From: Acidobacteriota bacterium | Lineage (GTDB): Bacteria; Acidobacteriota; Thermoanaerobaculia; Gp7-AA8 | Assembly: GCA_016184115.1 (NCBI GenBank) | Contig: JACPDH010000057.1 | Coordinates: 1-64,000 of the forward strand | Length of the DNA stretch: 64,000 bases | Reading direction: 5' to 3' | Part shown: one piece after another, positions 1,746-59,920 of the stretch | Layout of the letters: every line of letters begins with the position of its first letter | How positions within the stretch are numbered: the first letter of the stretch is position 1 | The notes under the pieces: model-generated | What the model saw: only the letters and a program-made list of their open reading frames with translations | Told to the model about the DNA's origin: nothing | The model's database searches: none | Program-made: the position numbers and the translations under genes

Positions 1746-4700
1746 ATGCGTGTCAAATGCCACGGTTGTCATACGGCGTGGGAGTTCCCCGACGACACCT
1801 CCGTCGCGCGATGCCCCTCGTGCAGAATTCTCGCACTGACACCATCCGGCCGTTCGCTCGTCGACACGGCCGAGACCGCTGAGCCAACCGATCATCAAAT
1901 CCTCGGCCTAACGAGCGACGTGCGAGGCGCGGTCCTGGGTGCCACGTGGGCGGCGTTCCTCGCGAGAATACCGTTCGACCGTTTTCCCGCGGCCTTCCGC
2001 CAGGGCCGGCTCGCATTCGACCGGCTCAACGCAGCGAGCGAGTCGATCCTCGTGCTCCCACGATGGCCGATCGCGCGACGCTGCCTCGCGTGTGACACGT
2101 CGGAGCGATTCGGATTCCGTGCCTGCGTAATCTGCCGGGGAGTGCTGCAGCCTCCACCGGTGGAGACGCGCGCGCCAATCCCCACTGATGCATCGAGCGC
2201 GGGCGCACTCGAGCGCGCGGAGGCGCTCTGGCGCGCCGGCGAGCTCGACGAGCTCTCCCTCATCGTCGATCGCGACCTCACGCAGCGCGACTGCAATGAG
2301 GAGTCGCGCGCCCGCCTCGACCTTCTCGCTGGTCACGCACGAGCGTCGGCAGGCGACCATGGCGACGCGATCGAGCACTGGGCACGCGCCGCGACGGTCT
2401 CTGCCGCATCGACCGAAGCTCGCTTCTGCCTCGCCGCACTCGCTTACCGTCGGAATCTCCCCGAAGAGGTGCTCCACCACGCCGACGCCAGCTGGCCGAA
2501 CGTGTCGGAAACGATGACGCTGATCGCCGGATCCGCACTCGCGGCGATCGGCCGCGCCGACGATGCGATCGAGCGACTCTCGTCGCTCTTCGGCTCGAGC
2601 GACGAACGCCTCGCGGCGCGTGCTCGATGGGCGGCAGCCGCGACGGAGTACGCCGGGGGCAACCCGTCAGGCGTCTTCGTCCACCTCCGCGCCGCGATCG
2701 CCACGCTCACCGGCCGGCGCGACGACGCAACGCTCGTCGAATCACTCGCACCGATCGATATTGCGAAGCTCCACAGCCACATGATCTGGTTGACGGGTGT
2801 GACGTGGTCGGCGCTCGGCAACGACGAGCTTGCGGAGAGCTGGCTTGCGCTCGGCCAGCAGCTCGCGCCCTCCGATCCGTCATTCCCGCGCGAGCGGGGA
2901 ACGATTGCGCTCCGAATGAAGGCTCTCGACGCCGCTCGCGGGCTCTTCGACGAGGCGGAGAAGCGAGGCGATGCGAAAGGAGCGGCGCGCGGCCGGGCGG
3001 TCGCCGATTGGATCGCCGGCGGACATCGCGACGCGTCACCGCTTCTCGCCGCCACGGAGGAGTCGCACGATCCGATCCTCTACTACCACGCGGGACGGCA
3101 GCTCGAGCGCGCGGGCGACACGACCGGAGCGGCACGGGCATACGCACACGCGACGGTGCTCGACCCGTTGATGGGACGAGCGTTCGCGTCTCTCGGCGTG
3201 CTCAACGCTCGCGCGGGAGACGGGGAACGCGGGATCCGTGCCCTTCGCCGCGCGCGTGTCGCGGGCGAACGCGGCATGATGGTGCTCAAGGCACTCGCGA
3301 CGCTGCTTCTCGAGCGCGGCAGCGTCGCCGAAGCAATGCCGCTTCTCGAGGAGATTCGCCTCCGCGCTCCCGACGACCCGGTCGTCGCTCGCAACTACGC
3401 CGGCGCCGCGCGCCTGCTCGCCCTCCAGCACGCCAATGACGAGAAGAACGAGGAAGCGCTCGAGTGGTTGAACGAGGGGGCCGCCGCCGATCCGGACGGC
3501 GCCGCGGCCTGGGATCGCGTCGGAGCGGAGATCGGATTCCGCGCCGCATTGCGCCTAACCGACTTGCGGCCCACCGGGTGGGAAGCTGCCGCCGAAGCGT
3601 TGCTCGAAGACGCGGCACGCCGCGACCCGGCAGATCTGCGGATCCGCCTACGCCTTGGCATCGTTCGGCTCGCGGGTGCGCTTTCGATGCGAAGCGACGA
3701 TGCGATGCGCGCGGCGATCGCGATGCTCCAGTCGGTCGCGTCGTCTCCTTCCGCCGCCCAGGCGCTCCGATTCAGCGCCGAGCTGCACCGGGCGATTGCG
3801 CTCCACGCGAGCGGCTCGACGCAGCAGGCTGACGAGATCGCTTCGCGCCTCGCGAAGAATCCGGCGCTCGATCCGGCGAGCAGGCTCCGCGCGCGATGGG
3901 TCCAGTCGCTCTCGCTCGCGATGTCGGGCCGGCTGCTGCAGGCTCGCGTGCTGCTCGAAGAATCGGCACGCGAGTGCGAAGAGATCGCCGACGCGGGCGA
4001 GTTTCTGAGGTTGGTGAGGCTGCAGATACTCAAGCTCGAGGCGGCCGAACGCGGAGCGCACAAACTCGAGCGCGAAGTGCAGGCGCTCGAACCCGACGCA
4101 CGCGGCGCGCCGGCGCAACTCTATTGGGGCGTCGTCCTCGCGGGACTCGGCCGCCACGACGAGGCCGACCGCGTTCTCGAGGCGGCGTCGCACGCGCCTG
4201 CACTTCGTCGCGATGCGCGCGCCAGCCGCTCGATGATGCAGCTCTCGCGCGTCGCGCACCTCCTCGCGAACGGCCGCGAGGCCGACGCCCTCAAGCTCAT
4301 GGGGAAGGTGCGACCATCACTCCCGCAGGATCCCGAGATCGACGAGTGGCTCAATACACTCGAGGTCGAAACGGTACCCGCCGCCGCGCTCCGGCAGGGA
4401 GATGCCGCGTCGGCGCTCGCACTCTGGTCGGCGCGAGCGCAGCGGTGGCGGCAGAAGGACGCCGAGTACTGGGAGCTCGTCCGCTCGATCGCGATCGCCG
4501 CGCACGCAGCCGCGATTCGCGCCGAGGAGCAATGCGAGCACGATGTTGCCGAAGACTATTGGAACGTCGCCGTCACACGGTGGCTCGAGCTCCTCGACGC
4601 CGATGAATTCTGGCAGGCCTACTCGCGTCGCGCGCGAGAGCTCTTCCCGTCGATCGATCCCGCGATCGTCGACCAGACGCGAGACGATCTCCTCGACACC

Positions 4701-5513
4701 CACGTGGCGGGGGTGATCCGCGCCGTCATCGCACGCCACACGCGGCGCGGAGACGTCCGTTCCGCGATGCGCCGCCACTCACTGCTCGAGCAGATCGAGT
4801 CGTGGCGGCTCTCGAGGAACCCCGCGGACGACAGCGCTCGCAAACGACTCGCCTCGTGCCATGCGCAACGTCTCATCCTCGCGTCGACGCTGAAGCTCTG
4901 GGACGATGCGATCGACTCCGGAACGAAGGCGTGCATCGCCGATCCTTCGGAGCCTGCCCACTTCACGAGCATGGCCACCACCTATGGCGCAATGATGCGC
5001 CCGCTGCTCGAGGAGCTCCGCGGGAAGGAGCGCGACGCCGACACGAGCACCCCGCTTTTCGAGCTCACCGGCAGGATCGTCGATCTGCTCTCGCTCGGAC
5101 TCGCTTGGAATCCGCACGAGCGTGAGCTCGCCGCGCTCTACTCCCAGCTGTCGATTCGCCTCGGCTATGCTGGCGTACCGGAGAGCGATCCCCGAATCCG
5201 CCGCGCCGAAGCGCTGCGTCAGAAACTCCCGCCCGATGCCCTCGCGCGACACGCGGCGATGCTCGCGGGCGACGTCGACGCGTCAGCGGAGACGTTCGCG
5301 GGAGACATCGACCTCGACGACGCGTTGCCGGCGGACGAGGGTCAGAGCATCGAGTTTTCGGAAACGGACGAGGTCGCCGCGAAGCGCCTCGTACGAAAGT
5401 GGAGGGACGACGGGTTGAGCCCCGACGCGATCTACTGGTCGCTCCTCAGCGTCTATCCCTCGCTCGCGAGGAGAGAACGGACGGCGATCTTCAGAATGGT
5501 CGAGGCGCCGTAA
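1746..5513 (+). CDS. Zinc-ribbon, degenerate J-like, TPR-repeat protein
   Basis: A 1255-residue cytosolic protein. Residues 5-26 form a four-cysteine ribbon (C5, C8, C23, C26). The next ~60 residues resemble a J domain (ILGL..., then DRF, then LAFDRLNAASESIL), but PFD stands where HPD should be. A second CXXC...CXXC pair follows at about residues 113-130. The rest, over 1000 residues, is alpha-helical with many TPR-like units rich in Ala, Leu, Arg and Glu. I chose ATG 1746 because the zinc ribbon begins there; the frame stays open upstream to 1593 but looks non-coding. It is the first gene of a same-strand run, and the next gene starts 13 bases after its stop. It could be a scaffold or substrate-recognition factor for the Clp ATPase downstream, by context only. 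Confidence 0.85.
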   Translation: MRVKCHGCHTAWEFPDDTSVARCPSCRILALTPSGRSLVDTAETAEPTDHQILGLTSDVRGAVLGATWAAFLARIPFDRFPAAFRQGRLAFDRLNAASESILVLPRWPIARRCLACDTSERFGFRACVICRGVLQPPPVETRAPIPTDASSAGALERAEALWRAGELDELSLIVDRDLTQRDCNEESRARLDLLAGHARASAGDHGDAIEHWARAATVSAASTEARFCLAALAYRRNLPEEVLHHADASWPNVSETMTLIAGSALAAIGRADDAIERLSSLFGSSDERLAARARWAAAATEYAGGNPSGVFVHLRAAIATLTGRRDDATLVESLAPIDIAKLHSHMIWLTGVTWSALGNDELAESWLALGQQLAPSDPSFPRERGTIALRMKALDAARGLFDEAEKRGDAKGAARGRAVADWIAGGHRDASPLLAATEESHDPILYYHAGRQLERAGDTTGAARAYAHATVLDPLMGRAFASLGVLNARAGDGERGIRALRRARVAGERGMMVLKALATLLLERGSVAEAMPLLEEIRLRAPDDPVVARNYAGAARLLALQHANDEKNEEALEWLNEGAAADPDGAAAWDRVGAEIGFRAALRLTDLRPTGWEAAAEALLEDAARRDPADLRIRLRLGIVRLAGALSMRSDDAMRAAIAMLQSVASSPSAAQALRFSAELHRAIALHASGSTQQADEIASRLAKNPALDPASRLRARWVQSLSLAMSGRLLQARVLLEESARECEEIADAGEFLRLVRLQILKLEAAERGAHKLEREVQALEPDARGAPAQLYWGVVLAGLGRHDEADRVLEAASHAPALRRDARASRSMMQLSRVAHLLANGREADALKLMGKVRPSLPQDPEIDEWLNTLEVETVPAAALRQGDAASALALWSARAQRWRQKDAEYWELVRSIAIAAHAAAIRAEEQCEHDVAEDYWNVAVTRWLELLDADEFWQAYSRRARELFPSIDPAIVDQTRDDLLDTHVAGVIRAVIARHTRRGDVRSAMRRHSLLEQIESWRLSRNPADDSARKRLASCHAQRLILASTLKLWDDAIDSGTKACIADPSEPAHFTSMATTYGAMMRPLLEELRGKERDADTSTPLFELTGRIVDLLSLGLAWNPHERELAALYSQLSIRLGYAGVPESDPRIRRAEALRQKLPPDALARHAAMLAGDVDASAETFAGDIDLDDALPADEGQSIEFSETDEVAAKRLVRKWRDDGLSPDAIYWSLLSVYPSLARRERTAIFRMVEAP

Positions 5514-5526
5514 GGAACGAACGACG

Positions 5527-5991
5527 ATGAGCGAGCGGCGACAGGTCGAACAGAAGAGCGAACCATTGGCGGGCGACCCGTTTGCCGGCGACAACCCGTA
5601 CACGGTTCTCGGCGTCGATCGCGAATCCGACATCGCCGGGATCCGCGCCGCCTATCGAGCAAAACTGCGGCAGACGGAGAACGAGCGCGAGCGGCAGTTG
5701 CTCCACGATGCATTCGAGACGCTGACGCGTCCACGAAGCAGACTCCTCCGTGACCTCTTCGCGCCCCGCGAGTCGCGCCGGCACGAACAGATCATGCTGC
5801 GCTACGGTGCAGTCCGATTCGAGCTCGAACCGCACGATGTCTCGTCTCTCCTCATGCATGCGAGCGACCTCGAGTGGGGCGGCGCGGCGAGTCAGCTCGA
5901 AGTGCCGCGCGTTCCAAAGGTCGTGTTCGAGAGCATGCTGCCGTCGCCACCGCGTGGCGACGAGCTCGTCGTGCCCGATCGCAAAAAGTGA
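5527..5991 (+). CDS. Degenerate J-domain protein lacking HPD
   Basis: A 154-residue protein. Residues 23-75 match the J-domain outline: NPYTVLGV, then IRAAYRAKLR (helix II), then a helix III-like LLHDAFETLTRPRSRLLRDLF. The HPD tripeptide needed to stimulate Hsp70 ATPase is missing, and the segment after helix II reads QTENERERQ instead. The C-terminal half has no recognised domain. The gene sits 13 bases after the zinc-ribbon/TPR gene, which has its own J-like segment without HPD, and 34 bases before the YbjN-like gene, so an operon is likely. By analogy with other J-like domains it may be a docking or adaptor module rather than an Hsp70 co-chaperone. Confidence 0.75.
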   Translation: MSERRQVEQKSEPLAGDPFAGDNPYTVLGVDRESDIAGIRAAYRAKLRQTENERERQLLHDAFETLTRPRSRLLRDLFAPRESRRHEQIMLRYGAVRFELEPHDVSSLLMHASDLEWGGAASQLEVPRVPKVVFESMLPSPPRGDELVVPDRKK

Positions 5992-6025
5992 CGCTCTCCA
6001 ACCGGCCGCCGCGCACTTTGGTAGC

Positions 6026-7033
6026 ATGAATCGCACATCACGATCGATGAGCCGGTTCCAGGCGGAGGACCGCTCCGCATCGCGTAAGACCGACGACGAG
6101 AAGACCATGGTGCTGTCGCCTCACAACCGTTTTCCGATCGCGTTCGAGCTCTCATCGAGCTCGGACGGGTCGCTGCCTCCCGACAGGCCGCGCGAGAGCG
6201 CCTCGAGCGAGCCGTCGGACGCGGTAACGCGCGTGGCGCTTCGCTGCGGATGGAACGTGACACGCGATGAGACGCGATTGGTGGTCGATGCAGGCGCCGA
6301 ACACCGCGTCCTCATCGAAGGCTCGGTCGCTGGGGCACGCGAGCGGCTCCTTCGGTTACGACGCCCGATTCCCGACGCCACAATCTCTCCGACAGAGGAA
6401 GCGGAGATGTTGAGGAGAAACGCGCGCACCGCGCATGCCGGCTTTGCGCTCGGCGGAGATGGCCGCGCGATGCTCACGGCGACGCTCACCGAACCGACCG
6501 TTGACGAAGGCGAGCTCGAAGCGGTCCTGCGCTCGATCATCGCCGGCGGCGACGCAGTTGGAGTGAAGGCGGTCATCGACTTCGATCCGACGACCTACCG
6601 TACGGCGGCGAGCGCCGGATCGTGGGAGGCGCAGCTCCTCCGCGAGTCGCTCGGCCGCGCAGCGATCGCGTTCCAGTTCGCCGGCGCACGCTGCGTCGCG
6701 AGCCTCGCGCTCGAACAGGGACGACACAAGTCCGTTCACATTCTTTTCGACCGCGCCGATGCATGGGGCGACCAACTCGTGCAGGCAATCTCGATCTGCG
6801 CCCCCGCGCCGCCGGAGTGGCATCGCAAGGCACTCGAGGCCAATGCGAGTTTGCCGCTTGGCGCGTTGGCACTCGCGACGTTCGGCCCGCTGGAGAGCCT
6901 CGTCGCGGTGCGCACGATGCTCGCGCGAAGCCTCGAGCCCGACACCCTGCTCGAGATCGTCGTGGGACTCGCTCGAATCGCCGACAAGGCGGAAGAGCAT
7001 CTACTCGACTCGAAGAACGAGCACCACTCGTGA
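6026..7033 (+). CDS. Tandem YbjN-like (type III chaperone-fold) protein
   Basis: A 335-residue protein. It appears to contain two copies of a YbjN/CesT-like domain. Copy 1 (about residues 55-175) ends with FALGGDGRAMLTATL and a helical EGELEAVLRSII. Copy 2 (about 215-330) ends with ALATFGPLESLVAVRTML followed by LEIVVGLARIADKAEE. The repeated pattern is a beta strand with Gly or Pro, a conserved strand of alternating hydrophobics, then a terminal amphipathic helix. This fold binds peptides or partially folded proteins in known members. The start is ATG 6026 or 6047, neither with a strong ribosome site. It lies between the J-like gene and the Clp ATPase. The family call is from pattern only and is moderate. 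Confidence 0.55.
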   Translation: MNRTSRSMSRFQAEDRSASRKTDDEKTMVLSPHNRFPIAFELSSSSDGSLPPDRPRESASSEPSDAVTRVALRCGWNVTRDETRLVVDAGAEHRVLIEGSVAGARERLLRLRRPIPDATISPTEEAEMLRRNARTAHAGFALGGDGRAMLTATLTEPTVDEGELEAVLRSIIAGGDAVGVKAVIDFDPTTYRTAASAGSWEAQLLRESLGRAAIAFQFAGARCVASLALEQGRHKSVHILFDRADAWGDQLVQAISICAPAPPEWHRKALEANASLPLGALALATFGPLESLVAVRTMLARSLEPDTLLEIVVGLARIADKAEEHLLDSKNEHHS

Positions 7034-7199
7034 TCAGATGCCAATCAATGTCCAGCGCAGAAACGCGTTCGAATACCGCGCTCGCCTGTCCCGGAACCGG
7101 TAACGCTTCGCTTGTGAGGGAATCAGCGTGTCACTGCGGGAGTAGTAATGAGTATCCAGACAGGATGTATCGCGCCGGAACCCGCACGATGAGGACGTG

Positions 7200-9512
7200 A
7201 TGTCGGAGATCGAAGCCATCACCGCGTTGATCGCGCCCGAGGCCCGGAGTCTCGTCGAAGCCGCGCGGCACGAGGCGCAGGCACGCGCCTGCTTCTACGT
7301 CGGCGTGGAGCATCTCTTCGTCGCCCTCGTGAAGCGGGAGCGATCGAAGCTCGCGCGCGCTCTCGAGACCACCGGAGTCGATCCGAAATCGCTTCGAGAC
7401 GCCGTGCGTCGTTTCGCCGGAGTCGGAAGCCCTGAAATCCCGTTTGCGCCACCCGCGGCGACGACGGTCCGGCTACGTGCGATCGTGCGCGACGCCGCGT
7501 ATCGTGCCCGTTCGCGAGGGGGCGAGCTCGCGGGCGAAGGCGACCTGATCGAAGCGATCCTGGGAGACGACGACGCCTCGCCCTCGATCGTGCTTCGCGG
7601 CGCGGGAGTCGACATCCCCGCGCTCGAGCTCGCGCTCGCGTCGAGCGCCGAAGCAGTCACCGTTCCGGGACGGATGCGACTCGGCTCGAAGGAGCTCGAG
7701 CCCGGCTCGATCCTCGCACGTTTCGGACGCGATTTGACCGCGCTCGCCGCGAAAGGCGAGCTCGCCACCGCGGTCGGGCGCGACTCGGAGATTCGCGAGC
7801 TGCTCCGCGCGCTCTGCAGGCAGACGAAGAACGCGCCGCTTCTCATCGGCGAGCCGGGTGTCGGAAAGACGGCAATCGTCGAAGAGCTCGCGAACCGAAT
7901 CGCGCACGGCGATGTCCCCGACGCGATCGCCGGAAAGCATGTCGTCGAGATCTCGCTCGCCTCGATCGTCGCGGGAACGAAGTATCGCGGCGAATTCGAG
8001 GAACGGATGGAGAAGCTCATTCGCGAGGCGCGCGACAACCCCGACATCCTTCTCTTCGTCGACGAGATTCACTCGCTCGTCGGGGCCGGCGCGGCAGAAG
8101 GCTCTCCGATGGACGCAGGCGACGTGCTCAAGCCGTCGCTCGCGCGCGGCGAGATCCGCGTCATCGGCGCAACGACGCCGCGCGATTACGCGCAGTCGAT
8201 CGAAAAAGACGGCGCGCTCGCACGACGCTTTCAAACCATCCGCGTCGACGAGCCTTCTCCCGCCGCGTCGCGTGCGATCGTCCTCGGCCGCTGCGCATCG
8301 CTCGAAGCGCACCACGGCGTGACGATCATGCCGGATGCGATCGACGCCGCCGTCACACTCTCCGTGCGCTACATCCCCGACCGGAAACTCCCCGACAAAG
8401 CGATCGACCTCGTCGACGAGGCGTGCGTCAGACTCCGCGTCCGCTCCTTCGCCGGGAAGTTCACGACGCTCGTCACTGCCGATCTCGTCGCCGAAGCGCT
8501 CTCCGCGAAAACCGGCATCCCGCTCCAGCGACTGACCGAGAGCGAACAGAAGCGACTGCTTCGTATGGAAGACGCGCTTCAGGCGCGCGTCGTGGGACAG
8601 GACGAGGCGTGCCGCTCGGTCGCCGAGCGAATCCGACTCGCCCGTGCCGGTCTGCGCGATCCGCGCAAACCGGTCGGCGTCCTCTTCTTCCTCGGCCCCT
8701 CGGGAGTCGGAAAGACCGAGCTTGCGCGCGCGGTCGCGGAGTTCCTCGACGGCTCTGACGACGCGATGATCCGCGTCGACATGTCGGAGTATCAGGAGAA
8801 GCACACGATTTCGCGCCTGATCGGCTCGCCGCCTGGATACGTCGGAAGCGATGAAGAGGGGCAGCTCACGCAGAAGCTGCGCCACCGCCCGGCGAGCGTC
8901 GTGCTCCTCGACGAGATCGAGAAGGCGCATCCCGACATCTGGGATCTCTTCCTGCAGGTCTTCGACGACGGGCGGCTCACCGACGCACAGGGACGGGTCG
9001 CCGACTGCAGGCACGCGATCTTCATCATGACCTCGAACGCCTGCTCCGACCTCTGGAACCACGACCGAGGCATCGTCGGCTTCGGCACGCCGCGCGAAGA
9101 TGAGGCCGCGGTTCTCGAGATGCCGGCGCCGTCGGAAGTCAACGACCGTCTCGCGAAGACATTTCGTCCCGAGTTTCTCAACCGCGTCGACGAGCTCGTC
9201 CTTTTCCGACCGTTAGGCGCAGAGGAGCTTGCCGCGATCGCCCGCATCCAGATCGAACGCCTGCTGGGCCGCGTCCGAGACCAGGGAATCGTCATCCATG
9301 TGACCGAGGCGGCGATCGCCGAGGTCGCGCGCCGCGGATGGGATCCCGCCCATGGAGCGCGCCCGATCGAGCGCTCCGTCGAAGACAACGTCGCACGACC
9401 CCTCTCCGCCGCAATCCTCAACGGACGCACGGGGCCGGGCGGTCGGATCCTGATCGACGCGAAGGACGGAGAGATCGCAGTCGACGCGAGCGGAGGTGAC
9501 GTCCGTGGTTGA
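7200..9512 (+). CDS. ClpA/ClpC-type Hsp100 AAA+ unfoldase
   Basis: A 770-residue ATPase. Residues 1-140 are a Clp N-domain. AAA-1 has Walker A GEPGVGKTA, Walker B LLFVDEIHS and the pore loop AGTKYRGEFEERM. AAA-2 has GPSGVGKTE, VVLLDEIEKAHPDIW and the pore loop GYVG. The linker between them is short, with no ClpB-type coiled-coil M domain. After AAA-2 Walker B, an IVGFG tripeptide region aligns with the ClpP-docking VGF loop of ClpC, so protease partnering is possible; no clpP lies in this window. ATG 7200 is preferred over the GTG at 7197, with GAGG five bases upstream. The 3-prime end overlaps the FHA gene. Context (J-like, YbjN-like and FHA neighbours) suggests a specialised unfoldase. Confidence 0.92.
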   Translation: MSEIEAITALIAPEARSLVEAARHEAQARACFYVGVEHLFVALVKRERSKLARALETTGVDPKSLRDAVRRFAGVGSPEIPFAPPAATTVRLRAIVRDAAYRARSRGGELAGEGDLIEAILGDDDASPSIVLRGAGVDIPALELALASSAEAVTVPGRMRLGSKELEPGSILARFGRDLTALAAKGELATAVGRDSEIRELLRALCRQTKNAPLLIGEPGVGKTAIVEELANRIAHGDVPDAIAGKHVVEISLASIVAGTKYRGEFEERMEKLIREARDNPDILLFVDEIHSLVGAGAAEGSPMDAGDVLKPSLARGEIRVIGATTPRDYAQSIEKDGALARRFQTIRVDEPSPAASRAIVLGRCASLEAHHGVTIMPDAIDAAVTLSVRYIPDRKLPDKAIDLVDEACVRLRVRSFAGKFTTLVTADLVAEALSAKTGIPLQRLTESEQKRLLRMEDALQARVVGQDEACRSVAERIRLARAGLRDPRKPVGVLFFLGPSGVGKTELARAVAEFLDGSDDAMIRVDMSEYQEKHTISRLIGSPPGYVGSDEEGQLTQKLRHRPASVVLLDEIEKAHPDIWDLFLQVFDDGRLTDAQGRVADCRHAIFIMTSNACSDLWNHDRGIVGFGTPREDEAAVLEMPAPSEVNDRLAKTFRPEFLNRVDELVLFRPLGAEELAAIARIQIERLLGRVRDQGIVIHVTEAAIAEVARRGWDPAHGARPIERSVEDNVARPLSAAILNGRTGPGGRILIDAKDGEIAVDASGGDVRG

Positions 9513-9816
9513 GCAATCGCTCGTCGCGCGCCTTGTTTTCGTCAGCGGACCCGAGGACGGAAAGGAAATTCAAGCACCGATCCCGGCGATCTTCGGCCGC
9601 CTCGCCGAGAACGAAGTACCTCTCCAGTACGACTACCTCTCGTCACGCCGCCACGCCTGCCTTTCCCACGACGGAGAGACGTTCATCCTCGAAGACCTGG
9701 GAAGCCGCAACGGTACCTTCCTTCTCACGGGAGAGCCGGTCCACTCCCCGCTCCCGATCGAATCGGGCGCAGTGTTCAAGGTCGGTGGCGTCTGGCTCAA
9801 ACTCCTCGGAGACTGA
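9505..9816 (+). CDS. Small FHA-domain protein
   Basis: A 103-residue protein that is essentially one forkhead-associated domain. The phosphothreonine-binding signature is intact: FGR (strand 3), SSRRHA (strand 4-5 loop) and LGSRNGTFL. The start could be GTG 9496 or GTG 9505. I favour 9505 because GGAGG at 9492-9496 is then eight bases upstream, inside the end of the clp gene. The overlap with the Clp ATPase gene (stop at 9510-9512) shows translational coupling. FHA domains read Thr phosphorylation, so this protein could link the unfoldase to a Ser/Thr kinase. One kinase is encoded at 57233-59920, but any link to it is speculation. Confidence 0.88.
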   Translation: MVEQSLVARLVFVSGPEDGKEIQAPIPAIFGRLAENEVPLQYDYLSSRRHACLSHDGETFILEDLGSRNGTFLLTGEPVHSPLPIESGAVFKVGGVWLKLLGD

Positions 9817-19086: not shown

Positions 19087-19180
19087 ACTCAAGACTCAGG
19101 ACTCTTTACTCAGCACTCTTTACTCAGGACTCAGGACTACGGACTAAGCACTCAGGACTAAGCACTCAGTCCTCAGGACT
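19087..19180. repeat. Heptamer tandem array (ACTCAGG type), about 13 units
   Basis: About 13 units of seven bases, consensus ACTCAGG, the reverse complement of the unit in 18845-18991. The array runs into the 3-prime end of the phosphatase gene: its stop TGA (19173-19175 on the minus strand) and the last Lys-Ser codons lie within the heptad phase. The arrangement suggests the array was generated at, or grew from, the gene end. Confidence 0.9.
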
Positions 19181-20801
19181 TTCTTGTGATCGCGAGAATC
19201 GTGACGTCGTCGTGCTGCTCCGCTCCGGACAGGAACGACGACACAGCCATGTCGACGGCGTTGACGACTTCATCGGCATCATGGAAGTGGCGGCCGCGCA
19301 GCGCCTTGGCAATTCCTTCGGTGCCGAGCAGGTCGCCGGTCGCGTTTTCCGCTTCGGCAACACCGTCGGTGAAGAGCACGATCGAATCGCCTTCGCCGAG
19401 CACGAGCGTCTGATCGCGGTACGACGAATTCGAGAAGACCCCCATCACGATGTCCGTGTCGCCCGCCTCGACCGCCCCGGAGGCGTTGAAGACGAGCGGC
19501 GGAAGGTGCCCCGCGTTAGCGAAACAGACTTCACCAGGTTTCGACGGATCGATCACACCGGCAAAGAGTGTGACGAATTTCGCGGGGCCGAGCCTTGGCG
19601 CGAGCATCGCGTTGAGCCGGCTGACGAGCTCCGACGGCGAGGGATCCTGCGAGGCGAAAATGTTGAACGCCATCGCGAGGCTCGACATCAGGAGCGCGGC
19701 GGTGATGCCTTTGCCACTCACGTCGGCAATCACGAAGTAGACGCGTCCATCGGGGCGGATCACGAAGTCGTAGTAGTCGCCACTCACCATCCGCGCGGGA
19801 CGGTTGAGTCCCGCGAGTAGATAGCCAGGCACTTCGGGTGGCCGCGCCGGAAGGATTCGACCCTGCACGACGTAGGCGGTGCGAAGCTCCTCGTCGATTC
19901 TCTGCTTGAGCAGCGATTCCTCACGAAGGCGCGTGGTGTCGAGCTTCGTCGCGGCGAAGCGGGCGATCTGCCCGACGAGGCAGACGTCGTCGTCGTCGAG
20001 CTCCTTGGTACCCATCAGAAAATCGACGTAGAGCACGCCGAGGACCTTGTCTTCGACGAGGAGCGGTGCGCAGAGCGCGGAACTGATGCGCTGGCCGACG
20101 ATCGACTTCGCCTGGGAGAGCTTGTCGTTCTGTCCCGCGTCGAGCAGCGACACGATCTTCTTTTCCTCGACGACCTCGCTGAGCAGCGTCCGGCTGAGTA
20201 CGAGGTCCGCGATGTCGTCATCGTCAGCGCGGCGTACTTTGATCGTGTCGAACCCCGAATGGCCGCGACCGAAGAGCGCGAGCGCGGCGCGCGAAGGCGC
20301 GAACGTCTCGACGACGCGATCGAGAATGAAGTCGAAGAGCTCACCGAGCGGCCGGTCCTCGAGCAACTCGATCGCGAGCTTGTTGAGCGCCTGGGTGCGC
20401 TCGAACGCGCGCTTGGAATGCTTCCCCTTCTCGATCGCGTCGGCGAGATGCACCGCGCTCGTCGTCGTCTGCGACGTCGATTCGACCGCGAGCAGCCGGT
20501 CCGTCCGCGTCACGCCGAAGAGGATCTCCGTCTCTCCGATCCTGATCGAGTCGCCGGGGCGGAGGTTCATCGGCACCTTCACCGGAATGCCGTTCAACCA
20601 GGTGCCATTGGCGCTCCCGCAATCGAGAAGCACCCAACGCTCACCTTCGTCGCGAAGCTCGATGTGCTTGCGCGAGAGGAAGCGGTCGTGGATCTGCAAA
20701 CTGCAGTCAGGAGACCGCCCCATCGTGAGCGAACCGCCGGAGAGTGTCCGTCGGATCGGCTCCTCCCCTTTTGGGTAAACGACGATATCGAGTCCGGTCA
20801 T
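19173..20801 (-). CDS. FHA-GAF-PP2C (SpoIIE/RsbU-type) protein phosphatase
   Basis: A 542-residue signalling protein. Residues 20-95 are an FHA domain (MGRSPDC, LSRKHIEL, GSANGTWLNG). Residues 140-290 are a GAF-like sensor ending in CAPLLVEDKVLGVLYVD. The C-terminal 230 residues form a PP2C/SpoIIE Ser/Thr phosphatase with VSGDYYDF, ADVSGKGITAALLM, the metal-site FANAGHLPP, LFTDGVAEA and QHDDVT. Such proteins dephosphorylate anti-sigma antagonists or other phosphoproteins in response to a signal, and here the FHA domain may recruit a phosphorylated partner. The stop codon is inside a heptad array. The start ATG 20801 is well supported because the FHA domain begins directly after it. Confidence 0.93.
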   Translation of the reverse strand: MTGLDIVVYPKGEEPIRRTLSGGSLTMGRSPDCSLQIHDRFLSRKHIELRDEGERWVLLDCGSANGTWLNGIPVKVPMNLRPGDSIRIGETEILFGVTRTDRLLAVESTSQTTTSAVHLADAIEKGKHSKRAFERTQALNKLAIELLEDRPLGELFDFILDRVVETFAPSRAALALFGRGHSGFDTIKVRRADDDDIADLVLSRTLLSEVVEEKKIVSLLDAGQNDKLSQAKSIVGQRISSALCAPLLVEDKVLGVLYVDFLMGTKELDDDDVCLVGQIARFAATKLDTTRLREESLLKQRIDEELRTAYVVQGRILPARPPEVPGYLLAGLNRPARMVSGDYYDFVIRPDGRVYFVIADVSGKGITAALLMSSLAMAFNIFASQDPSPSELVSRLNAMLAPRLGPAKFVTLFAGVIDPSKPGEVCFANAGHLPPLVFNASGAVEAGDTDIVMGVFSNSSYRDQTLVLGEGDSIVLFTDGVAEAENATGDLLGTEGIAKALRGRHFHDADEVVNAVDMAVSSFLSGAEQHDDVTILAITRKS

Positions 20802-57060: not shown

Positions 57061-57209
57061 GCCAAGGGGCCAGGCGCCAAAGCAGACGAAGACAGGTGAA
57101 GGTTCGACTGTCACGACCTGCACAACCGATTCGGCATTCGCAGGGGCGACCGCCCGGCCGATCAGCTCGTTGCCTGCCTGGTCTTTGGCCTCTGGCCTCT
57201 GGCCTGCAA
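57061..57209. repeat. Heptad inverted arms (GGCCTCT type)
   Basis: The left arm, 57061-57081, is three 7-mers of SGCCARR type. The right arm, 57182-57209, is four 7-mers centred on CCTCTGG. The arms are largely complementary and enclose about 100 bases of ordinary sequence. They start 12 bases after the symporter stop and end 24 bases before the kinase start. Confidence 0.7.
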
Positions 57210-57232
57210 CGCATGCCGTATACTTCCCAAAA

Positions 57233-59920
57233 ATGCAGGTCAGTCCCGGTGTTCGGCTCGGTCCGTATGAGATCGTCGCTCCGCTAGGTGCGGGCGGTTG
57301 GGGCGAAGTATGGCGCGCGCGCGACACGCGCCTCGCGCGCGACGTCGCGATCAAGATCCTCCCCGCCGAGCTGGCTTCGAACGAACGGTTCCTCGCACGA
57401 TTCGACCGGGAGGCGCGCGCGATCTCGAGCCTCAACCATCCGAACATCTGCACGCTGTATGACGTGGGCGTCGAAGGAACGACGCGATACCTCGTCATGG
57501 AGATGATCGATGGCGAATCGCTAGCGCAGCGGCTCAAGAAGGGGCCGTTGCCGGCGAACCAGGTGTTAAGGCTCGGTGGGCAGATCGCGAGCGCCCTCGA
57601 CCGTGCGCACCGCCAGGGCATCATTCACCGCGATCTGAAACCTGCGAACATCATGCTGACGCGCTCGGGAGCGAAGCTCGTCGACTTTGGCCTCGCCTAT
57701 CTTTCATCCGGTTCGCCGCTGCTGACGAGCGATTCGCGCGAGATCACGAAGGAACAGCCACTGACGGCGGAAGGAACGATCGTCGGTACGTTTCAGTACA
57801 TGGCTCCCGAACAGCTCGAAGGCACCGAGCCTGATGCACGAACCGACATCTTCGCGCTCGGCGCGGTGCTGTTCGAGATGGCGACGGGGCAACGAGCCTT
57901 CGTTGGCGCATCGAAAGCAAGCCTCATCGCGGCGATCATGGCAACACCCGCGCGTCCGATCTCGGCCCTCGTCCCTGTCGCTCCTCCTGCGCTCGACCAC
58001 GTTGTCCGTCGTTGTCTCGAGAAGCATCCCGATGACCGCTGGCAGAGCGCACACGACGTCGCGAGCCAGCTCGAGTGGATCAGCGAGTCGGGCTCGAAAG
58101 AGAGCGTGGCTGCGGCGAGCACGCGCAGGCGCGGCGAGAGGTTCCGGTTTGCGAGCGCGATCGCGGCGATGGTCGCGATCACCCTGTTCGCGCTTGCGAT
58201 GGCGATGTCGAGACCTGCGCCGAAACCAGAGGTCACCTGTTCGCGCCTCCTTCCTCCCGCCGGGACCGAGTTCGACTTCAATGAAGGCCATGTCGGCTCG
58301 CTCGCCATCTCGCCCGACGGGCGTCGCATCGCGCTGACCTCCCGTGAAGAGAGCGGCCGGCGCGCTCTCTGGATCCAGTCGCTCGACGAGCCACAACCGC
58401 GACGCCTCTCCGGCACCGAGGGAGCACGCTTCCCCTTCTGGTCGCCCGACGGGCGCTTCATCGCCTTCTTCGCCGACGCGAAACTCAAGAAAATCGACGT
58501 CTCGGGCTCCGCGCCATTCGTTCTTTGCGATGCGCCTAACGGACGCAGTGGAGCCTGGAACCGTGACGGAGTCATCCTCTTCTCCGCCGAAGGGAACAAG
58601 CCCATTTCACGCGTGAACGACAGCGGTGGACCCGCGGTGGAGATCACGAACATCGACGTCGCGAAGGGCGAGACGACGCACCGCTGGGCCACCTTCCTCC
58701 CCGACGGCGAGCATTTCCTCTACCTCGCCGGCACGCACACGCTAGGCAGCTACAGCGACTTCAACGCAATCTACGCCGCATCGCTCGATCAACCCGAGAA
58801 CCGCAAGCTCATCGTCCGAGCCCGTTCCAACGCGAGCTACGCCTCAGGGCACATCCTCTACGTCCGCGACAACGTGCTCGTCGCCCAACCGTTCGATCCC
58901 AAGCGGCTCGAAACGACCGGCAAAGCCGTACCGCTGACCGAATCGGTTCGCTACTCGTTCGTCTTCTTCCGTGGCGTCTATTCGGCCTCCGATAACGGAG
59001 TCGTCGTCTATCAGCCAGGCATTGCGAACTCCAACGCTCAGCTCACCTGGTTTGACCGCTCCGGCAAGGAGCTCGGCACCCTGGGCCACGAGGGCCGCGT
59101 CCGCGGCCGCCCAGCGATCTCTCCCGACGGTACGATGGCCGCGGCGTCGATCGAGGACGATGCATCGGGCATGCGCGACATCTGGCTGTTCGACATCGCC
59201 CGCGGCACACAGACGCGCTTCACCTTCGGCCCGAAATCGGAGAACACGCCGGTCTTCTCCCCCAACGGATCCGAGATCGCCTACCACGAACAGAATCCGA
59301 CGAACCCGAACGACTCCTTCGTAATGGTTCGACGCACGAGCGGCACGGAGGAAGCGCGCGCGCTCGTGAGCGTGCAGGGCTCCGTTCTTCCGACCGCGTG
59401 GAGCACCGACGGCGCAACGATCATCGCGTCGAAGCAGCGTCCATCGGGAGACTGGGACCTGGTGAAGCTCGATGCGAAGAAAACGAATGCATCGCTCGAG
59501 CCGATCCTCGCGCGCGATGGCGAGAGCGACTCGATCGCGGTGCGTACCGCCGACGGTCGCTGGATCGCGTGGTTCTCCGACGAGTCGGGACGCAGCGAGA
59601 TGTGGGCGACGAGCTACCCGGGTCCCGGTGGTAAATGGCAGTTGACGAACACCGGGATCGTCATGATGGGATCGTCGTGGGGAAACAACGAGCTCCTCTA
59701 CAGCCAGGACGATGGCGGGATCTACTCGATCCCCACCGCAGTGAATGGCGAGACACTGAGCCCGGGCTCGCCGCAACTCCTCTTCAGGAACCACCGCATT
59801 CTCAGTTGGGTGCTCGCACCCGACAGGGAACGGATTCTCGCCGCCGTCGCCGCCGACACGAAAACGAACGAGCCGCTCGCGATCATTCAGAACTGGCCGC
59901 TCAAGGTTCCGGTCGAGTAA
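57233..59920 (+). CDS. Transmembrane Ser/Thr protein kinase with C-terminal beta-propeller
   Basis: An 895-residue protein. Residues 10-285 are a Hanks-type kinase: LGAGGWGEVWRARD, VAIKIL, IHRDLKPANIML, KLVDFGLAYL, GTFQYMAPEQLEG. All catalytic residues are present. A single helix at about 308-325 (IAAMVAITLFALAMA) is followed by about 570 residues of TolB/WD40-like propeller with repeated SPDG (HVGSLAISPDGRRIAL, RFPFWSPDGRFIAFF, GRPAISPDGTMAA, TPVFSPNGSEIAY). Such fusions are abundant in Acidobacteriota. The start is ATG 57233; the frame is open to 57170 but the kinase starts right after 57233. The FHA proteins at 9505 and 19173 could read its phosphorylation, but that is untested. Confidence 0.93.
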   Translation: MQVSPGVRLGPYEIVAPLGAGGWGEVWRARDTRLARDVAIKILPAELASNERFLARFDREARAISSLNHPNICTLYDVGVEGTTRYLVMEMIDGESLAQRLKKGPLPANQVLRLGGQIASALDRAHRQGIIHRDLKPANIMLTRSGAKLVDFGLAYLSSGSPLLTSDSREITKEQPLTAEGTIVGTFQYMAPEQLEGTEPDARTDIFALGAVLFEMATGQRAFVGASKASLIAAIMATPARPISALVPVAPPALDHVVRRCLEKHPDDRWQSAHDVASQLEWISESGSKESVAAASTRRRGERFRFASAIAAMVAITLFALAMAMSRPAPKPEVTCSRLLPPAGTEFDFNEGHVGSLAISPDGRRIALTSREESGRRALWIQSLDEPQPRRLSGTEGARFPFWSPDGRFIAFFADAKLKKIDVSGSAPFVLCDAPNGRSGAWNRDGVILFSAEGNKPISRVNDSGGPAVEITNIDVAKGETTHRWATFLPDGEHFLYLAGTHTLGSYSDFNAIYAASLDQPENRKLIVRARSNASYASGHILYVRDNVLVAQPFDPKRLETTGKAVPLTESVRYSFVFFRGVYSASDNGVVVYQPGIANSNAQLTWFDRSGKELGTLGHEGRVRGRPAISPDGTMAAASIEDDASGMRDIWLFDIARGTQTRFTFGPKSENTPVFSPNGSEIAYHEQNPTNPNDSFVMVRRTSGTEEARALVSVQGSVLPTAWSTDGATIIASKQRPSGDWDLVKLDAKKTNASLEPILARDGESDSIAVRTADGRWIAWFSDESGRSEMWATSYPGPGGKWQLTNTGIVMMGSSWGNNELLYSQDDGGIYSIPTAVNGETLSPGSPQLLFRNHRILSWVLAPDRERILAAVAADTKTNEPLAIIQNWPLKVPVE

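Follow-up and report, generated by a model that had tools for sequence, protein, structure and literature searches.

Which of the genes in a tight same-strand cluster of an Acidobacteriota genome work together, and what might they do? The question is raised by a locus at positions 1746-9816 of a 64,000-nucleotide stretch of DNA (assembly GCA_016184115.1, contig JACPDH010000057.1, positions 1 to 64,000; hereafter the window). A sequence-only reading had likened its five genes, encoding a TPR protein, a J-like protein, a YbjN-like protein, a Clp (Hsp100) unfoldase and an FHA protein, to an unfolding or degradation machine with its own adaptors and a phosphorylation input. All five open reading frames (ORFs) were confirmed to be open on the plus strand, near the places given earlier. 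We found that the conserved core is the pair of Clp and FHA genes, which recurs across at least three phyla, and that the other three genes of the locus are neighbours outside this core. What survives of the original proposal is thus an unfoldase with a predicted phosphothreonine (pThr)-reading partner, linked to it across phyla; the five-gene set does not survive. We give slightly less than an even chance to the view that the real unit would be a two-gene system, in which an M-domain-less Hsp100 unfoldase is served by a dedicated FHA adaptor encoded by an overlapping gene.

Linkage between the two genes was examined across genomes. A search with the window Clp at an E value of 1e-186 gave no match in the class (149 genomes) besides the window's own genome; at 1e-170, one further genome of the phylum was recovered (G273, 45% identity). 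Because a full-length Clp query in viral contigs returned generic Clp proteins, a subfamily signature was used instead. This two-row signature (YxGVEH in the N-domain and HPxIWDLF in the second AAA+ module, D2) yielded 30 loci from the genome collection, among them full-length relatives from Planctomycetota and Hydrogenedentota in which an FHA gene adjoined the Clp gene. A seven-row profile was also built for the subfamily; in the matching local profile, members scored 1074-1320 bits and the paralogues of the window's own genome at most 791. By the seven-row profile, subfamily members occur in the window's phylum in at least 2 of 347 genomes, in Planctomycetota in at least 3 of 392 and in Hydrogenedentota in 34 of 68; the two largest searches scored no more than the two or three best candidates of each genome, and their counts are therefore lower bounds.

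When all ORFs near the Clp genes were compared with an FHA profile, an FHA gene was the immediate neighbour in 35 of 35 testable subfamily loci (the window, G273, 3 Planctomycetota and 30 Hydrogenedentota); outside this set were two loci whose contig ends at Clp and three weaker matches that were not fetched. In the same scan, none of 25 other Clp genes had an FHA neighbour, these controls comprising the own-genome ClpA, ClpB, ClpC and contig C13 Clp, T6SS (type VI secretion system) ClpV, Clps linked to HtpX, Clp proteins of ~1100 amino acids and Chloroflexota Clps. Some of these FHA genes had served as seeds of the scanning profile; the window FHA protein is independently supported by Pfam FHA, and a profile from which it was left out still recovered it at 3e-15. 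The layout of the pair differs between groups: the Hydrogenedentota genes mostly overlap by 4 nt, while G273 and Planctomycetota have the FHA gene directly upstream of Clp. Because gene order varies in this way, the adjacency of the two genes must have outlasted rearrangement. Separately, one Hydrogenedentota genome (G503) carries two subfamily Clp copies (L156 and L159, on contigs C288 and C403).

The window Clp consists of Clp_N, two AAA+ modules and D2-small (Pfam AAA, AAA_2, AAA_lid_9, Clp_N and ClpB_D2-small, all above cut-off), and on this domain content its identity as an Hsp100/Clp unfoldase is certain. Alignment with the paralogues of its own genome, which also codes for ClpA, ClpB and ClpC, showed that the Walker and arginine-finger motifs and the pore motifs KYRG and GYVG are intact, and alignment with the own ClpB and ClpC showed that the coiled-coil M-domain is missing. 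The sequence IVGF, which fits [ILV]G[FL], stands at the place of the ClpP loop, after the D2 sensor-1 region, in agreement with the VGF-like loop read earlier. A ClpP gene is present on contig C37 of the own genome and in 4 of 4 other searched hosts of the window's form of the pair. The loop at the docking place, together with this gene, suggests that the window Clp may dock ClpP. The protein is ~40% identical to its subfamily relatives, and it fell below the cut-offs of the models for ClpV (TIGR03345; 642.7 bits against 884.95, with true ClpV at 1041-1044), ClpA (TIGR02639; 659.9 against 993.15) and ClpB (761.5 against 1232.1). A known defence system was considered and rejected, given that PADLOC matches were of AAA type only, fell on Clp alone and never spanned the whole protein.

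The FHA protein is hardly more than an FHA domain and has no anchor. Its match to Pfam FHA (1.3e-12; 48.3 bits against a cut-off of 20.7) makes the domain identity certain, and the pThr-site residues G-R, S, H and N-G are all present; the protein should accordingly recognise phosphothreonine, as predicted from these residues. Its start is probably GTG 9505, with GGAGG lying 8 nt before it within the 3' end of clp. With this start, the two genes overlap by 8 nt; with a start at 9496, the overlap would be 17 nt. The earlier description of a phosphothreonine-reader gene overlapping the unfoldase gene thus agrees with the data. The coordinates of all five genes are collected in Table 1. Elsewhere in the window lie a second FHA protein, with FHA, GAF and SpoIIE phosphatase domains (19173-20801, minus strand), and a Ser/Thr protein kinase with WD40-like PD40 repeats (57170-59920, plus strand) that might generate pThr in this organism.

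Table 1. Genes of the Clp-FHA locus, in window coordinates.
Gene	Position	Strand	Status and remarks	Evidence
Clp	7200..9512	+	Core; ~770 amino acids; ATG start, GTG at 7197 also possible	Pfam; motifs in paralogue alignment; subfamily clade
FHA	9505..9816	+	Core; ~103 amino acids; probable GTG start, 9496 also possible	Pfam 1.3e-12; pThr residues; GGAGG; conserved adjacency
YbjN-like	6026..7033	+	Neighbour, non-core; weak YbjN/CesT-like stretch	Pfam YbjN 0.018, below cut-off
J-like	5527..5991	+	Neighbour, non-core; no HPD; pairs with TPR gene in the genus	Pfam DnaJ 3.7e-4, below cut-off
TPR	1746..5513	+	Neighbour, non-core; N-terminal zinc-ribbon-like segment	Pfam TPR_14 1.3e-5; Zn_ribbon_4 0.017

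A phylogeny of 34 Clps placed 17 Clp-FHA members together with three HtpX-linked Clps in one clade with support of 98/98, and ClpA (from E. coli and from the own genome), ClpB, ClpC and T6SS ClpV all fell outside it. The HtpX-linked Clps, which are the group nearest to the subfamily and were seen at seven loci (L139-L143, L145 and L146), are 766 amino acids long, carry a YVGVEH signature and an LGF loop, have no FHA neighbour and lie directly 3' of an M48 peptidase (HtpX-like) gene wherever the contig shows it; at two of these loci (L140 and L145) they are upstream of gliding-type ABC transporter genes. Another odd Clp family, of ~1000-1290 amino acids and also without an FHA neighbour, has a non-Clp N-terminal region of roughly 240-300 amino acids and a long C-terminal extension. 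It was seen in Hyphomicrobium, Acidobacteria/Pyrinomonadaceae and Planctomycetaceae (L118-L125 and L127) and on contig C13 of the window's own genome (L027:303-3590), where the copy has lost the Walker B acid residues of the first AAA module.

Comparison of the pairs revealed two forms. The pairs of the window, G273 and Planctomycetota have the pThr residues G-R, S, H and N-G and the GF loop (5 of 5 each) and show no clear membrane segment. In the Hydrogenedentota FHA proteins, the G was kept in 26 of 26 and the H in 23 of 26, but the R, S and N in only 1 of 26 each; the Clp proteins have no GF loop, and most complete FHA proteins have a hydrophobic C-terminal segment. To judge from these residues and segments, Hydrogenedentota have lost the pThr site and the GF loop and gained a membrane anchor on FHA. 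The HtpX-linked group has kept an LGF loop, so that Hydrogenedentota probably lost a loop that the ancestor had. This loss is a single change on the tree, and its correlation with the pThr site is therefore only suggestive.

The three remaining genes of the locus behaved differently. In the only same-genus genome returned (G001, 90% complete), the counterparts of TPR (58-67% identity) and J-like (49%) are followed directly by B12-binding and homocysteine-methyltransferase-like genes, which in the window lie downstream of FHA. This G001 locus lacks YbjN-like, Clp and FHA, and YbjN-like and Clp were not found elsewhere in that genome; the block thus either entered the lineage of the window or disappeared from that of G001. 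GC content and third-position GC of the five genes resemble those of neighbouring genes, so that recent transfer is not indicated, and this uniform composition is compatible with either gain or loss of the block. Moreover, no match to the YbjN-like, J-like or TPR proteins was found within 5 kb (or to the contig end) around nine other subfamily Clp loci. Taken together, the G001 locus and these nine loci rule out a conserved five-gene module: across phyla, the neighbourhood check supports co-occurrence of Clp and FHA and speaks against that of the other three. The tight spacing noted earlier applies to the TPR/J-like and J-like/YbjN-like gaps (13 and 34 bp) and to the clp/FHA overlap, but not to the ~166 bp ahead of clp. 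Promoter and terminator scans did no better than chance. TPR and J-like form a gene pair of their own in the genus (G001, L030 and L031); elsewhere in the family, the J-like protein had no relatives and TPR matches were generic only.

The domain assignments of these neighbours held in part. The TPR repeats exceed the Pfam cut-off, whereas the zinc ribbon is a weak match. Of two supposed J-like domains without HPD, the one in the protein at 5527-5991 is seen weakly (21.0 bits against a DnaJ cut-off of 27.8, with the G001 relative at 1.9e-5) and indeed lacks HPD; the one placed inside the TPR protein gave no Pfam match in either the window or G001. For the supposed tandem YbjN-like protein, the first half gave sub-threshold YbjN/CesT matches (E values of 0.018-0.27; YbjN 15.7 bits against a cut-off of 22), but the second half gave no Pfam match, and the two halves were no more similar than shuffled sequence. 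A single-sequence fold was uninformative (predicted local distance difference test score, 37) and was not used. No relatives of this protein were confirmed in 60 related genomes or in a contig scan limited to close relatives; candidates in two genomes (G016 and G034) were marginal matches and were judged from their gene neighbourhoods to be due to chance.

Several other explanations of the locus were weighed against a two-gene unit. The linkage of ClpV and FHA genes in T6SS, together with a weak match of the window FHA protein to the T6SS FHA model TIGR03354 (0.0012), might suggest a remnant of such a system. We consider this origin barely credible: the ClpV score lies far below its cut-off, ClpV branches outside the clade, and no VipB/TssC sheath gene (PF05943) was found in the own genome (97% complete; an E. 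coli control was positive) or in 8 of 9 other host genomes. The same model score, tree position and absent sheath gene rule out that the window Clp is a T6SS ClpV, and the earlier placement of the pair outside T6SS holds as far as the sheath gene. That an orphan Clp paralogue merely happens to adjoin an FHA gene would fit the rarity of the subfamily in the window's phylum and the distance of the window Clp from its relatives, but the FHA adjacency of 35/35 against 0/25 and the overlap of the genes make such a coincidence most improbable. A chaperone module local to this lineage has somewhat more in its favour. It could comprise all five genes, or YbjN-like, Clp and FHA, in which case the YbjN-like protein would be an additional adaptor that came in with the pair, and the TPR and J-like proteins would act with it; the shared strand, the short gaps and the joint absence of YbjN-like, Clp and FHA in G001 are consistent with it. 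Yet it is known from a single genome, none of these genes lies near the nine other Clp loci, G001 has TPR and J-like alone, a 166-bp gap precedes clp and the YbjN name is weak; we regard it as unlikely.

How a Clp-FHA unit might act can be proposed. The cell's Ser/Thr kinases would phosphorylate target proteins on threonine; the FHA protein would bind the unfoldase, probably at its N-domain, and bring pThr-marked proteins to it; and, in the window's form, the pore of the unfoldase would thread them into ClpP. The Hydrogenedentota pair would instead be a non-proteolytic unfoldase held at the membrane by its FHA anchor. FHA-Clp binding, delivery of pThr proteins and docking of ClpP are the inferred steps of this scheme. 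A bacterial pThr-degron pathway of this kind, with a membrane-bound Hydrogenedentota pair independent of ClpP and of pThr, is offered as a tentative and rather doubtful proposal. Four observations weigh against the two-gene scheme as a whole: no kinase gene adjoins the examined pairs; the window Clp, on a long branch, groups next to the HtpX-linked Clps, a placement of poor support (80/32), and the approximately unbiased test does not reject a clade of the 17 Clp-FHA members (p 0.5); this HtpX-linked sister group has no FHA neighbour; and most of the pairs are those of Hydrogenedentota, where the pThr site has been lost, so that pThr reading cannot be the function common to all of them. Alternatively, FHA might regulate or place the unfoldase, reading pThr on Clp itself or on a scaffold and thereby switching or localising the machine, as Fha1 does with ClpV1. 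In T6SS, recruitment of ClpV1 needs Fha1 (PMC3953482). An FHA protein can therefore direct an Hsp100 motor, and the same precedent also lends support to placement of the motor as opposed to delivery of its substrates. The Hydrogenedentota FHA protein, with its hydrophobic segment and without pThr residues, suits an anchor more than a reader; the window's form, with an intact pThr site on a nearly bare FHA domain and no anchor, does not. By analogy, regulation or placement is possible but would not be our expectation.

The Clp adaptors known so far recognise N-termini, tags or phosphoarginine. Literature searches combining FHA with Clp, ClpA, Hsp100 or unfoldase yielded T6SS and unrelated papers and no account of the pair in a library that lacks most subscription papers, a result which suggests but does not prove that the pair is so far undescribed. 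If the degron pathway is correct, a two-gene unit of unfoldase and dedicated pThr reader would tie Ser/Thr kinase signalling in bacteria straight to the unfolding or degradation of proteins. The recurrence of the pair in at least three phyla outside T6SS points to a so far undescribed way of choosing proteins for this fate. The pair is small enough for test-tube reconstitution, and its two natural forms, with and without the pThr site and ClpP loop, provide a ready-made comparison.

Among known systems, T6SS ClpV (TssH) with Fha/TagH resembles the pair in that an Hsp100 motor is functionally tied to an FHA protein (PMC3953482); the window differs in that its genome has no sheath gene and its Clp scores below the ClpV cut-off, branches apart from ClpV and carries a ClpP-type loop. 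The protein at 6026-7033 weakly matches the YbjN/CesT-type chaperone fold in its first half but differs in its sub-cut-off score, its unmatched second half and its lack of linkage to other Clp-FHA pairs. ClpA with ClpS is likewise an M-domain-less two-module unfoldase with Clp_N, a GF/GL-type loop and a small adaptor gene adjoining (E. coli clpS-clpA), but the window has FHA instead of ClpS, a sub-cut-off ClpA score, a separate branch and a ClpA of its own besides. Finally, phosphoarginine degrons are handled by ClpC with McsB, where the ClpC N-domain itself reads the mark. Phosphorylation would be coupled to a Clp unfoldase in the window pair as well, but through a separate FHA protein for pThr and on an unfoldase with no M-domain.

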